Of a stretch of DNA of 37,064 nucleotides, positions 2,374-6,317 are shown one piece after another. This DNA comes from Candidatus Sungbacteria bacterium RIFCSPLOWO2_02_FULL_51_17. Its GTDB lineage: Bacteria; Patescibacteriota; Minisyncoccia; Sungbacterales; GWA2-42-14. Under the pieces are notes generated by a model. That model was not told the origin of the DNA, did no database searches, and saw nothing but the letters and a program-made list of their open reading frames with translations. How positions within the stretch are numbered: the first letter of the stretch is position 1; each line of letters begins with the position of its first letter. The position numbers and the translations under genes are program-made. Where the stretch lies: NCBI GenBank assembly GCA_001820785.1, contig MHQW01000015.1:1-37064 (forward strand), in the 5' to 3' direction.

Positions 2374-2703
2374 ATGGCAACGAAGGCCGAACAACATGTT
2401 GAGCAGCGCATCCGCATCAAAGTGCGGGCGTATGACAATAAGATTATTGACTCTTCTGTGAAGCAGATAGTTGATACCGCGCGCCGCCAAGGCGCCGAGG
2501 TTGTCGGCCCCGTGCCTCTGCCAAATCAGATAAACAAATACACCGTCAACCGATCTTCGTTTGTCCATAAAGATGCCAGAGAGCAGTACGAGATGCGGAT
2601 CCACAAGCGCTTGATAGACATCGTAAATCCAACACCGAAAACGATTGACGCGCTTATGAACCTGAATTTGCCTGCTGGCGTGGATATTGAGATAAAGATG
2701 TGA
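2374..2703 (+). CDS. rpsJ: 30S ribosomal protein S10
   Basis: S10 of 109 aa, a 30S head protein that also joins NusG/NusB antitermination complexes. The family signature is clear: [21 protein letters not shown] and [25 protein letters not shown]. The ATG at 2374 matches other S10 starts; a TTG at 2365 would add three residues. AGGA at 2347-2350 lies 23 bases before the ATG, but a small hairpin between them (AGCAA 2352-2356 with TTGCT 2361-2365) would shorten the effective distance to about 9 nt. Unlike the usual order, rplC does not follow directly: two unknown ORFs intervene. Confidence 0.98.
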
Positions 2704-2704
2704 A

Positions 2705-2869
2705 GTTTTGTCTATAATTTTTGAGTTGAAAAATCAAAAATTATAGTTGCAAAACGAAATCCCTCTCCAGTTTTACTGAGGAATTTGTAAGAGCGATTGT
2801 TGAGCTATACAGCTCTATATCACTGACAATTTGTTCGTAAAACTGGGGAAGGATAACACCATAAAAAAT
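2705..2869 (+). promoter_or_regulatory. Structured leader (short type) before the 87-aa ORF
   Basis: Two helices fill the gap between rpsJ and the next ORF. Domain 1: GTTTTGT (2705-2711) pairs with GCAAAAC (2749-2755), then after a TT bulge (2747-2748) an 11-bp perfect stem forms from 2712-2722 with 2736-2746. Domain 2: 2759-2776 pairs with 2837-2854, 18 positions with one mismatch and one G-U, enclosing a 60-nt core. The 3' arm contains GGGGAAGGA (2845-2853), the only Shine-Dalgarno candidate for ATG 2870. The bulged first hairpin matches the elements before rplC, rplB, rplV and rplF, but the final start-codon hairpin is absent. Confidence 0.6.
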
Positions 2870-3133
2870 ATGGGAATGGAAGGACCAAGTAAACAGGAGG
2901 ATTCGCTGGGGCGCTTAAAGGAGTGGCAACTTTTTGAGCAAAAAGTTCATTTGGTAGATGGTAAGCAGCGCACCGTCGGGTTCAATGCGCCTGGTGGCAA
3001 ATGGTATAATCTTGAAGAAGGCGAAGAGTTAGTTTTTAATATGACCCCAGATGGGAAAGATAGAAAAGCATTTATTAGAAAAGGTGGGACGGAAACCCCC
3101 TTTGAACAGTGGAAGGAAAAAAGTAGCAGGTAA
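2870..3133 (+). CDS. Hypothetical protein, 87 aa
   Basis: I do not recognise this protein. It is small, charged and soluble, with no signal or membrane segment. The middle (FEQKVHLVDGKQRTVGF, then a Gly/Trp turn GGKWYNLEEGEELVF) suggests a compact beta-strand domain. A TTG at 2831 would extend the frame upstream but would lie inside the leader helix, so ATG 2870 is chosen; ATG 2876 is possible. Its start (MGMEGPSKQ) resembles that of the next ORF (MGIEKAPEKK). It sits inside a ribosomal operon between rpsJ and rplC, which is unusual. Codon pattern gives confidence that it is coding, not what it does. Confidence 0.65.
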   Translation: MGMEGPSKQEDSLGRLKEWQLFEQKVHLVDGKQRTVGFNAPGGKWYNLEEGEELVFNMTPDGKDRKAFIRKGGTETPFEQWKEKSSR

Positions 3134-3279
3134 TTTCAATTAGCCATTGAATGATTCTTCGTGAGAGGTGTCTCGCGGAGAAGATTGAGTGGCCAAAACC
3201 TACTCACCCCTGTTGTCACTCTTTTGGCAAGCTCAAAAACATTTGTCGGTAACACTAAGTAGGTGTAACTATTAAACAT
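3134..3279 (+). promoter_or_regulatory. Structured leader (short type) before the 262-aa ORF
   Basis: A 5' hairpin runs from GCCAT (3143-3147) to GTGGC (near 3189-3193), with an inner stem GTGAGA/TCTCGC (3161-3176, one G-U). A second helix pairs TGTTGTC (3211-3217) with GGTAACA, and outside it CCTACT with AGTAGG, on both sides of a short core. The GTTG..GTAAC helix next to the core resembles domain 2 of the other leaders. Bases 3138-3219 recur at 4135-4216. No Shine-Dalgarno is visible close to ATG 3280. Confidence 0.5.
3138..3219 (+). repeat. 82-nt direct repeat, copy 1
   Basis: Bases 3138-3219 match 4135-4216 at 80 of 82 positions, with no gaps. The copies flank the 262-aa ORF, so the repeat period is 997 bp. 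The repeated piece is the 5' hairpin plus the first arm of domain 2; the sequence after it diverges completely. Confidence 0.93.
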
Positions 3280-4068
3280 ATGGGAATAGAAAAAGCGCCG
3301 GAGAAAAAAGCAGAAGCGTCCCCATCATTTGAAGAATTTAAAAGGGTTTTTGGTGAATACGCCGAATTACGATGGCAGGCGCATGCGGCTGGTCTTGTCA
3401 CACGAAAAATGATTGCAAATTATGGGTACGCTGACCAGCGGACAGAGTACGCTGGTTCACCAGAGATATGGAAAGACATTCCCGCGATGGCTGATCTCGT
3501 TGCCGAAGAGGTTGACCTTATGGCAAGCGGCGTATCCGAGTCGGAAATGAAGAAGTATTCTACGCTGTATAAACGGGCCTATGAGCGGGCAAAAGATCTT
3601 CAGAGGCGGGGGTATCAGCTTGCGGAGAGCAATCCTTGGGTGTTTCGGGCTGAATATATTGCAGAGCGCCAAGGGAAAGATATCAGATTTTTTAAACAAG
3701 TGTTTGGCGAGGATGACCTCCGCGGTTTCTATGAGGGGGCGATGAAGTGGTGGAAGGATGATACTTTATTGCGCGAAGCAAGAGAGCTTGAGAGTTCTAG
3801 AGAATTTAGAGAGGTGGTGTTGCTCGCAGATATCGCGAAGAGCATGATGGCTCATAAGGCGAGATGGGAGCATGATCAGGAGGACCTCAAGCGAGAAGGA
3901 TTTACTACTCCAGAGGAAAAGTTTGCCGATGCGCTGAAAAAATTAGAGAAGATAAAGGGGGCGGTCGGGGAGAAGAAATATAAAGAGCTTGCAAAGTATC
4001 TCACAGTTGGCTCCTTTCGCAATGTTCATCATGCTGATCTGTTCGGGGCGGATGAAAACGATGAATAG
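3280..4068 (+). CDS. Hypothetical helical protein, 262 aa
   Basis: No family is recognised. The protein is soluble and very rich in charged residues, and nearly all of it looks alpha-helical: FEEFKRVFGEYAELRWQAH near the start, KYSTLYKRAYERAKDLQRR in the middle, and KFADALKKLEKIKGAVGEKK near the end. There is no signal peptide, membrane segment or cysteine cluster. The start at ATG 3280 follows a structured leader, and the N-terminus (MGIEKAPEKK) echoes that of the ORF before it. With that ORF it interrupts the conserved rpsJ-rplC junction. A ribosome-associated role would fit the location, but nothing in the sequence proves it. Confidence 0.75.
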   Translation: MGIEKAPEKKAEASPSFEEFKRVFGEYAELRWQAHAAGLVTRKMIANYGYADQRTEYAGSPEIWKDIPAMADLVAEEVDLMASGVSESEMKKYSTLYKRAYERAKDLQRRGYQLAESNPWVFRAEYIAERQGKDIRFFKQVFGEDDLRGFYEGAMKWWKDDTLLREARELESSREFREVVLLADIAKSMMAHKARWEHDQEDLKREGFTTPEEKFADALKKLEKIKGAVGEKKYKELAKYLTVGSFRNVHHADLFGADENDE

Positions 4069-4134
4069 GGCGATGCGTTTGTTTCGGGCAATACAAATAT
4101 AGTTGAGATATCGGGAACGTTGAGAAACCGCCAA

Positions 4135-4216
4135 AATTAGCCATTGAATGATTCTTCGTGAGAGTTGTCTCGCGGGGAAGATTGAGTGGCCAAAACCTAC
4201 TCACCCCTGTTGTCAC
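4135..4216 (+). repeat. 82-nt direct repeat, copy 2
   Basis: Second copy of the 3138-3219 sequence (two substitutions). Downstream it has a different arrangement: a CCTTTCC/GGAAAGG hairpin around 4216-4235, then GGGGAT able to pair with CACCCCT. It no longer precedes a full gene, only the 12-codon ORF at 4304, so it may be the leader of a lost gene (inference). The bases between the 262-aa ORF and this repeat (4069-4134) show nothing recognisable. Confidence 0.93.
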
Positions 4217-4303
4217 CTTTCCGAGGGCGGAAAGGATGGGGATACTAGTTGCAGTATTAAATTGAATAATGTTCACCTTATATACGTGATATAAGAGGAA
4301 TAT

Positions 4304-4342
4304 ATGGGTCCGCAGAATGTAACTGGGGAACCAGTTTTTTAA
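4304..4342 (+). CDS. 12-codon mini-ORF overlapping a terminator-like hairpin
   Basis: ATG 4304 is preceded by GAGGA (4295-4299) at 4-nt spacing, one of the better ribosome sites in this operon. The frame encodes MGPQNVTGEPVF and stops at TAA 4340-4342. Its last codons run through the hairpin at 4321-4336. It could be a leader peptide whose translation prevents the hairpin from forming, or the remnant of a third 'MG...' ORF like the two before it. Both are inference. Confidence 0.35.
   Translation: MGPQNVTGEPVF
4321..4340 (+). terminator. Short terminator-like hairpin before the rplC leader
   Basis: AACTGG (4321-4326), a GGAA tetraloop and CCAGTT (4331-4336) are followed by six T residues (4335-4340). 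The stem is only 6 bp, so it is a weak intrinsic terminator. It would separate the two unknown ORFs from rplC, or act as an attenuator with the mini-ORF that runs through it. Confidence 0.5.
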
Positions 4343-4581
4343 TTTTTGCCTGCGAGCGTGAGCGAGCAGCTGCAGAAATTTACCCTCGTGAGGGTTACCT
4401 TAAGAAAGGTATGGCATTGTGAGACCGAGCAGAAGCAAAAACAAATCCACCGAAGCTGTAGCGAAGGCGGATGATTGCTAATCGGAAGGAAGATATTTAC
4501 ATTATGGTGTGTCCGCCCTTGCTAAAGCTTCGGCAGGATGCTCATAATTGTAAGCTACATTTCAGAGAAATTTAGACAATT
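4341..4581 (+). promoter_or_regulatory. Structured intercistronic RNA element before rplC (full type)
   Basis: Domain 1: AATTTTTGC (4341-4349) pairs with GCAGAAATT (4372-4380). After a CT bulge (4370-4371), CTGC (4350-4353) pairs with GCAG (4366-4369), topped by tandem G-A mismatches and a GTGA tetraloop. Then come TTACC (4395-4399) and ATGGCATTGT (4411-4420), the latter shared with the rplV element. The core carries an imperfect palindrome (4450-4533). TGCTCA (4539-4544) follows, then a last hairpin AATTGT (4546-4551) with ACAATT (4576-4581) that ends exactly at the rplC ATG. No Shine-Dalgarno is present. Confidence 0.68.
4450..4533. repeat. Imperfect palindrome, 22-nt arms, inside the rplC leader
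   Basis: Bases 4450-4471 and 4512-4533 are inverted copies matching at 19 of 22 positions, with arms of the type TCCGCC-TTGC-TAAAGC-TTCGG. I associate such GC-rich palindromes with Parcubacteria intergenic DNA, from memory. It lies within the core of the leader and looks like an insertion into it. Confidence 0.75.
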
Positions 4582-5196
4582 ATGGCAAAATTCATCCTTG
4601 GAGAAAAACTCGGCATGTCACAGGTATTTGACAAAGAAGGGAACGTAACGCCCGTTACGGTAGTTCATGCTGTTCCGAACATTGTTTTGCAGGCGCGGAC
4701 AAAAGAGAAGGACGGATACGCCGCGGTACAGGTCGGCATGGGAGAGCGAAAGCCGAAAAATATCGCAAAACAGCAGAAGGGGCATTTCGGCGAGTTGGGA
4801 AATTTCCGATGGGTGAGGGAATTTAGAACTGACGACGTAAAAAGTCGCGGAGACAAAGTTGATGTATCGGTGTTTTCGGAGGGTGATGTCATCAGGGTTT
4901 CGGGGATTACCAAAGCGAAAGGATTTCAGGGTGTCATGAAGCGGCACGGTTTTCACGGTAAAGACGCAAGTCACGGAACAAAGCATGCGCACCGCGAGCC
5001 CGGTTCTATCGGTGGAGGCGGGGGACGCGCGGGTGGTCGTGTGGTGAAAGGGAAGAAAATGGCCGGACGCATGGGGGGCGAGCGGCAAACCGTCAAAAAT
5101 TTGAAGGTGGTGAAGGTTGATGCCGAAAACAATCTTATCGCCGTGTTGGGGGCGATCCCGGGACGACGGGGAGCGCTCATTGAAATTCGCGGATAG
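4582..5196 (+). CDS. rplC: 50S ribosomal protein L3
   Basis: L3 (204 aa), an early-assembly 50S protein whose loop reaches towards the peptidyl transferase centre. The family core is obvious: KGFQGVMKRHGFHGKDASHG, then HREPGSIGGGGGRAGGRV and KMAGRMGGERQTVKNL. The start MAKFILGEKLGMSQVF is canonical, and its ATG touches the last hairpin of the upstream element. The Gln within KGFQG is the position methylated by PrmB in other bacteria. Usually rplD follows within a few bases; here 485 bp with an antisense gene separate them. Confidence 0.98.
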   Translation: MAKFILGEKLGMSQVFDKEGNVTPVTVVHAVPNIVLQARTKEKDGYAAVQVGMGERKPKNIAKQQKGHFGELGNFRWVREFRTDDVKSRGDKVDVSVFSEGDVIRVSGITKAKGFQGVMKRHGFHGKDASHGTKHAHREPGSIGGGGGRAGGRVVKGKKMAGRMGGERQTVKNLKVVKVDAENNLIAVLGAIPGRRGALIEIRG

Positions 5197-5208
5197 TAGC
5201 CGGTAGTG

Positions 5209-5296
5209 GTGCGTGAGTGCACGCACGAACACGACACCCTACAGGGGGCACGTTCATGTTCGGGCGTGTGCGCATTCGCTAAAGCGAAGTAAGCAC
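5209..5296. other. Hairpin-rich spacer after rplC
   Basis: Several inverted repeats occur in this spacer: GTGCGTG/CACGCAC near 5209-5226, and TTCGCT/AGCGAA (about 5276-5289) inside a GTGC/GCAC stem. They lack the CT-bulged hairpin and the TGCTCA sequence, so I cannot call this an intact member of the leader family. It may be a degraded copy or the 3' end of the rplC message. Confidence 0.3.
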
Positions 5297-5320
5297 AAAA
5301 AAACTCCGCATGGTGCGGAG
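5297..5320 (-). terminator. Intrinsic terminator of the antisense lipoprotein gene
   Basis: On the minus strand CTCCGCA (5320-5314) and TGCGGAG (5310-5304) form a 7-bp stem with a 3-base loop, followed by seven T residues (5303-5297). This is a clear rho-independent terminator for the minus-strand gene that ends at 5329. Confidence 0.85.
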
Positions 5321-5328
5321 CGGCGAGA

Positions 5329-5598
5329 TCACTTATCAAGTGTTTTGAATCTGATCTCGGAAACGCTTGAAATGGGAATGGTCATCTTATTGTGGTCATC
5401 AACACTTTTTGGCCCCACATAGCAGACGAGAGTCACATTATCAATCTGAAAGCCCTCGGGGCAGGCAATGATGTTCCCGTCAAGAAGTTTTACATCAAGA
5501 GGGCGCTGCTGAATCTCCGGATGGCATCCGCCGAGAAAGGCGACCACTGCGAGAGCGCCCATAAAAGGGAGCAAAAACCTACCGATTTTTGACCGCAT
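5329..5598 (-). CDS. Small predicted lipoprotein, antisense within the S10 operon
   Basis: The 89-residue protein starts with a basic stretch (MRSKIGR), a hydrophobic segment and a lipobox-like LGGC with the lipid-attachment Cys at residue 25, so it should be exported and membrane-anchored. The mature part has two further Cys (ACPEGFQIDNVTLVC), perhaps a disulfide. No family is recognised. The gene has its own promoter (TTGACA-N16-TAATAT) and terminator, and lies antisense between rplC and rplD, which are normally adjacent. Its transcript runs against the operon. The complete transcription unit and signal peptide argue that it is real rather than a chance frame. Confidence 0.8.
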   Translation of the reverse strand: MRSKIGRFLLPFMGALAVVAFLGGCHPEIQQRPLDVKLLDGNIIACPEGFQIDNVTLVCYVGPKSVDDHNKMTIPISSVSEIRFKTLDK

Positions 5599-5630
5599 GA
5601 CGTTTGTATGAGTACATGGGAACTAGCATC

Positions 5631-5658
5631 ATATTACATAAATAAAAAAATTTGTCAA
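5631..5658 (-). promoter_or_regulatory. Promoter of the antisense lipoprotein gene
   Basis: On the minus strand TTGACA (5658-5653), a 16-base spacer and TAATAT (5636-5631) make a strong promoter about 33 bases upstream of the ATG at 5598. It fires away from rplD, whose start (5682) is only 24 bases from the -35 box. A direct repeat AACTAGCAT (5621-5629 and 5664-5672) brackets it and could be an operator (inference). Confidence 0.78.
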
Positions 5659-5681
5659 GTATTAACTAGCATACCGTTAGC

Positions 5682-6317
5682 ATGAAGATCACCGTATACA
5701 ATACTCTTGGAAAAGAAGCCGGAACTGCCGATCTGCCGGATGGTATTTTTGCCTTGCCCTGGAACGCCGATCTTGTCTGGCAGATAGCTACATCACAGGA
5801 GGCGAACATGCGCGGCACATACGCAAAAACGAAGGATCGCGCCGAAGTGCGGGGTGGCGGCAAAAAGCCATGGCGGCAAAAGGGAACCGGAAGGGCGCGC
5901 CACGGCTCCATCCGTTCTCCGTTGTGGAAGGGCGGCGGCAGTACGCACGGTCCGCTTACGGTAAAAAGCTATAAAAAAAAGATCAATAAAAAAATGGCCC
6001 GAAAAGCGCTTTACACGGTATTGTCGGCAAAGGCCCGCGACAACGAACTTGTTGTGCTTGATTTGCTGAAGATGGATATTCCGAAGACCAAAAAAGCCGC
6101 AGAAATATTTTCCGGACTCGCCACGCACTTCAAAGATATCACGGCGTCAAAAAGCAGAGCGTTGGTGCTCCTGCCGCACATGGATGTCAACGCGAAAAGA
6201 GCCGTTCGGAACTTGCCATATGCCGCGGTGGACGAGGCGAGAAATCTTACCGCGTGGCAGGCATTACAGCATAAATATCTTGTGCTTCCAAAAGAAGCGA
6301 TAGCATCATTTACATAA
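5682..6317 (+). CDS. rplD: 50S ribosomal protein L4
   Basis: L4 (211 aa), an early-assembly protein lining the exit tunnel; in Escherichia coli it also represses its own operon. The diagnostic loop is present: GGGKKPWRQKGTGRARHGS followed by SPLWKGGGSTHGP, then KKINKKMARKAL. The start MKITVYNTLGKEAG is typical. No Shine-Dalgarno precedes the ATG. A divergent promoter for the lipoprotein gene sits immediately upstream, and I see no convincing plus-strand promoter here, so transcription probably reads through from rplC. rplW follows after 8 bases. Confidence 0.98.
   Translation: MKITVYNTLGKEAGTADLPDGIFALPWNADLVWQIATSQEANMRGTYAKTKDRAEVRGGGKKPWRQKGTGRARHGSIRSPLWKGGGSTHGPLTVKSYKKKINKKMARKALYTVLSAKARDNELVVLDLLKMDIPKTKKAAEIFSGLATHFKDITASKSRALVLLPHMDVNAKRAVRNLPYAAVDEARNLTAWQALQHKYLVLPKEAIASFT

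Follow-up and report, generated by a model that had tools for sequence, protein, structure and literature searches.

The rpsJ-rplC junction and its direct repeats

The window analysed here is a 37,064-nucleotide stretch of DNA, contig C15 in the assembly of Candidatus Sungbacteria bacterium RIFCSPLOWO2_02_FULL_51_17. It carries, in order, tuf, rpsJ, an 87-aa ORF, copy 1 of an 82-nt direct repeat, a 262-aa gene, copy 2 of the repeat, rplC and rplD (Table 1). A repeat search of the window shows that the copies are identical at 80 of 82 positions (98%) and spaced 997 bp apart, reproducing the repeat pair and period described in the initial annotation; the differences between them are G31T and A42G in repeat numbering. 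The chance expectation of such matches in 37 kb is approximately 1e-36, assuming equal base frequencies. Gapped alignment lengthens the match to only ~87 nt (about 5 bases more), and the flanks beyond it are unrelated. Sequence and covariance-model searches of the whole genome (1.24 Mb in 49 contigs) reveal no third copy. The repeat search of the window found no inverted repeat pair bounding 3138-4216, and the segment thus lacks the terminal inverted repeats expected of a transposon or MITE.

Table 1. Features of the rpsJ-rplC junction and the adjoining genes, in window coordinates
Feature	Coordinates	Strand	Basis
rpsJ (S10), upstream edge of the junction	2374..2703	+	Pfam Ribosomal_S10, E 5.8e-36
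Conserved RNA region E0/E1, two hairpins directly after rpsJ, separate from the repeat	2705..2852	+	Alignment with G002 and G003
87-aa ORF, begins MGMEG, no family match	2870..3133	+	
Copy 1 of the rplC-leader core (P1, P2 and 5' half of P3), putative insertion scar	3138..3219	+	
262-aa cassette gene	3280..4068	+	
Copy 2 of the core, probable ancestral place in front of rplC	4135..4216	+	
Helix P1 of copy 2	4140..4190	+	Covariation on alignment A1
Alternative hairpin P2, 4184-4189 with 4197-4202, uses the 3' strand of P1	4184..4202	+	
Hairpin P3, CCCC 4204-4207 with GGGG 4238-4241; conserved GUUGUC 4209-4214; inserted hairpin 4216-4235	4204..4241	+	By inspection
Hairpin P4, AGUUG-type loop	4242..4257	+	Inspection of the order's leaders
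Intrinsic terminator, AACTGG-GGAA-CCAGTT-TTTT, within the 12-codon ORF	4321..4340	+	
rplC (L3), the gene that the leader belongs to	4582..5196	+	Pfam Ribosomal_L3
rplD (L4), follows rplC	5682..6317	+	Pfam Ribosomal_L4

The 12-codon ORF that the initial annotation placed after copy 2 (4304-4342) is probably not a gene, as an intrinsic terminator lies inside it. The E0/E1 region has 47 predicted pairs, 11 of which are changed on both sides, in a comparison of only three sequences (the window, G002 = L058 and G003 = L009). Farther downstream, the rplC-rplD spacer (5197-5681) is 485 nt long and contains, at 5303-5321, a minus-strand hairpin that resembles a terminator.

A structured RNA in front of rplC

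The repeat is the core of a structured RNA that lies immediately before rplC in Candidatus Sungbacteria (Patescibacteria). The relatives compared are genomes of the same order from outside the window's genus. In two of them, G003 and G005, sequence searches identified a single, partly matching element, in each case a short way before rplC, and the rplC loci from 22 order genomes show a related element in most rpsJ-rplC spacers. A covariance model constructed from alignment A1, whose 12 sequences include both copies from the window, finds the core at E<=0.1 in 16 of 23 order genomes, always at the rpsJ-rplC junction; the matches at E<=0.01 in the order and class searches all lie at this junction too, with one per genome except in the window, which alone among the genomes with the core carries two separate copies. 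The core is unmatched in the other seven order genomes, one of which is also without an rplC match, and no match was found outside the order in a 286-genome sample of the class, searched with stricter filters under which weak matches can be lost. A core-pattern scan of named genomes returned three records at the junction (L051-L053, apparently G021, G005 and G003); a further match in L054, labelled Chthoniobacterales, reads as transporter coding sequence and was taken as chance. The leader is a new family in both sequence and structure, absent from Rfam 15 at the gathering score: the whole window has no match at that score, and a permissive search of 2700-4600 yielded chance-level matches only.

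Two core matches reported in G014 correspond to the overlapping ends of two contigs. The end of its contig C15 and the start of C29 share exactly 141 nt of the leader, the kind of overlap that assemblers leave at a branch; a second copy may have been collapsed here, or strains may vary.

In the alignment P1 covaries, and P2 also pairs. For P1, 82% of cells are paired compared with at most 63% in slid versions, and 25 cells are changed on both sides against a shuffle mean of 10.7, a count reached in none of 500 shuffles. For P2, 91.7% of cells are paired against at most 56% when slid, and its covariation score is attained in 11 of 500 shuffles. P2 joins the 3' strand of P1 to a downstream ACUC-type strand, and because the two share a strand they are mutually exclusive, which suggests a two-state switch. 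P3 and P4 are based on inspection only: relatives show P3 stems of CCCC/GGGG, UCCC/GGGA and CCUC/GAGG by eye, and in the window, where P3 spans the inserted hairpin, it was not recovered by a script based on pairing length. The leader would thus be composed of a long helix P1, a competing hairpin P2, a P3 with the GUUGUC loop, a small P4 and an intrinsic terminator, followed by rplC.

All 21 of the order genomes tested carry an intrinsic terminator on the stretch from the core to rplC, no more than 300 nt before the gene; the corresponding figures are 11% of dinucleotide shuffles and one of 21 in the 300 nt downstream of rplC. In several genomes (G008, G015, G018, G010 and G014) only 15-23 nt separate the end of the terminator from the rplC ATG; a promoter would not fit there, and rplC transcripts in these genomes must therefore read through the terminator. 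Of 27 genomes without the core from other orders of the class (L066-L092), 20 carry a terminator in the rpsJ-rplC spacer, within 60 nt of the rplC ATG in 16 of the 20, and the terminator therefore appears to be more widely distributed than the core.

This wider occurrence speaks for another reading, in which leader and terminator lie where one transcription unit (tuf-rpsJ) ends and the next (rplC onward) begins, or form a site of RNase processing, and are not a regulated attenuator. We regard this as rather improbable, given that P1 and P2 are conserved upstream of the terminator within the Sungbacteria order and that terminators ending 8-23 nt before the rplC ATG in several genomes leave no space for a promoter of a second unit.

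Cassette genes and local repeats

The gene content of the junction is not fixed across relatives, so that the invariant arrangement named in the initial annotation as grounds for refutation is not seen. In G005 rpsJ and rplC have no gene between them, an empty site; G003 has two other small genes in the spacer; and the spacers of G001 and G002 hold longer arrays, among them DUF4258-like, DUF2283-like, RelBE-like and coiled-coil genes, as judged from translations read by eye. No recombinase gene was recognised by eye among the inserts. Small coiled-coil genes with related sequences recur in the rpsJ-rplC spacers of G002, G009, G010, G013 and G017.

NCBIfam and PDB returned nothing for the 262-aa protein, Pfam and PHROGs gave weak matches only, with no family reaching a curated cut-off (Pfam Exo5 at 16.6 bits, with a cut-off of 25), and no relative was found in viral contigs. 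A single-sequence structure prediction is all-helical with a mean pLDDT of 48.6, and was set aside as poor. A short motif (AxGVSxxExxxYSxL) recurs in the protein, in genes of the G001 and G003 cassettes and in a gene elsewhere in G002; the junction genes that have it are a 129-aa gene in G003 and a 110-aa gene in G001, the latter from alignment only.

Repeats of neighbouring sequence, 39-82 nt long, flank the cassettes, and they belong to the rplC leader or to rpsJ. At the G001 junction, 49 nt of the 5' half of the leader are repeated at 94% identity, extending to the ATG of the cassette gene, as are 49 nt of the rpsJ end at 88%; this second rpsJ end matches the genome's own rpsJ at 43 of 49 positions and the window's at 42 of 49. 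G002 has fragments of the leader 5' half in front of its coiled-coil cassettes. Self-comparison of the junctions shows such leader or rpsJ-end repeats to be absent from the order genomes scanned other than the window, G001 and G002, and the junction repeats in G009 and G006 involve neither the leader nor the rpsJ end. In G001 (L057, reverse strand, ~604-1028) the 49-nt rpsJ-end repeat follows a small cassette gene, forming another repeat-flanked insertion.

Copy 1 itself could have been co-opted and now regulate the 262-aa gene, or else read-through into the cassette, with one signal serving cassette and ribosomal genes. That it is 80/82 identical to copy 2 while the flanks are unrelated is compatible with selection or with gene conversion, and both differences leave P1 intact, but 59% of random substitutions would too, so that two neutral changes mean little. 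Copy 1 also lacks the partner strand of P3 and a terminator, and we consider co-option unlikely.

Less probable still, with the relatives having largely refuted it already, is the proposal in the initial annotation that the 262-aa gene has the 82-nt element as its leader, the two moving together as a cassette, with the second copy a remnant of a lost gene. Copy 1 does lie 60 nt before the 262-aa start, and the junction is variable, but the element stands in front of rplC in every relative that has it, and in G003 no core leader precedes the gene of the protein's weak homologue. Moreover, copy 1 breaks off inside P3, and there is no terminator between it and the 262-aa start, which points to an insertion scar in the leader region and not to a leader owned by the cassette. 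There is no need to invoke a tandem gain of leader and gene with later loss of the second gene, since the relatives place copy 2 in its ancestral position directly before rplC. What is supported is that cassettes are gained and lost at this junction, and direct local repeats also flank those of G001 and G002; no support was obtained for a leader that travels together with the 262-aa gene. That the second copy arose by a chimeric join in a metagenome-assembled genome is very improbable: this is a 49-contig draft and G014 breaks exactly at the element with its contig overlap, but two differences separate the copies, their flanks are unrelated, and G001 and G002 independently show analogous repeats.

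Probable attenuation and cassette insertion in the S10 operon

We favour, with a probability of roughly 0.7, a reading in which the element is an attenuator leader of rplC, with copy 2 ancestral and copy 1 left behind by insertion of the 262-aa gene. Polymerase arriving from tuf-rpsJ would either terminate before rplC or read through, depending on how the leader folds, and the leader would thereby govern rplC, L4 and the following genes of the S10 operon. The choice of fold probably depends on one of the operon's own ribosomal proteins, L4 or L3, which would make the control autogenous. Comparison of four leader motifs with the genome's own 23S rRNA locus found no likeness beyond shuffles at the level of primary sequence, and binding of L4 or L3 thus gains no support from primary-sequence mimicry. 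The 23S rRNA match itself (G000:C4:15323-19974) spans 4.65 kb compared with a 2.9-kb model, and the gene probably contains a large insertion such as an intron. Copy 2 would be the ancestral leader, and copy 1 would have been left when DNA with the 262-aa gene entered the leader region by a repeat-generating recombination, perhaps a tandem duplication or an insertion assisted by homology.

Among known systems, the closest is the S10-operon leader of E. coli, which acts by L4-dependent attenuation and translational repression, with L4 promoting termination (PMC10931766). Both are long structured leaders with an intrinsic terminator in the S10 operon, the terminator being present in 21 of 21 Sungbacteria order genomes, but the E. 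coli leader precedes rpsJ (PMC2704228), whereas the Sungbacteria leader lies between rpsJ and rplC and has no Rfam match. Ribosomal-protein leaders, for which conservation across phyla is often lacking, have been noted to have narrow distributions (PMC10931766, PMC4647458), and this one is likewise an order-restricted cis-acting RNA before a ribosomal-protein gene. Like a transcription attenuator, it has a terminator in the 5' UTR. Upstream of the terminator P1 and P2 share a strand and both pair, and they would supply the mutually exclusive structure of an attenuator if the choice between them were coupled to termination; we predict that the leader works in this manner. The local direct repeats around the cassettes resemble those of gene insertions generated by tandem duplication or homology-assisted insertion, although here, unlike in such insertions, the repeats involve the leader of an essential operon.

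A broader version of this reading, possible but tentative, is that the leaders constitute a new family of P1-versus-P2 switches in Patescibacteria that set read-through into L3-L4, with their copies serving as recombination anchors for repeated insertion of small genes, such that the inserts may come to share the control. The literature accounts of ribosomal-protein operon control that we found concern E. coli and a few other bacteria, with none for Patescibacteria. A conserved terminator-bearing leader before rplC in a reduced genome provides a testable case, at a junction where small genes enter a ribosomal operon again and again and leave copies of the control RNA behind.
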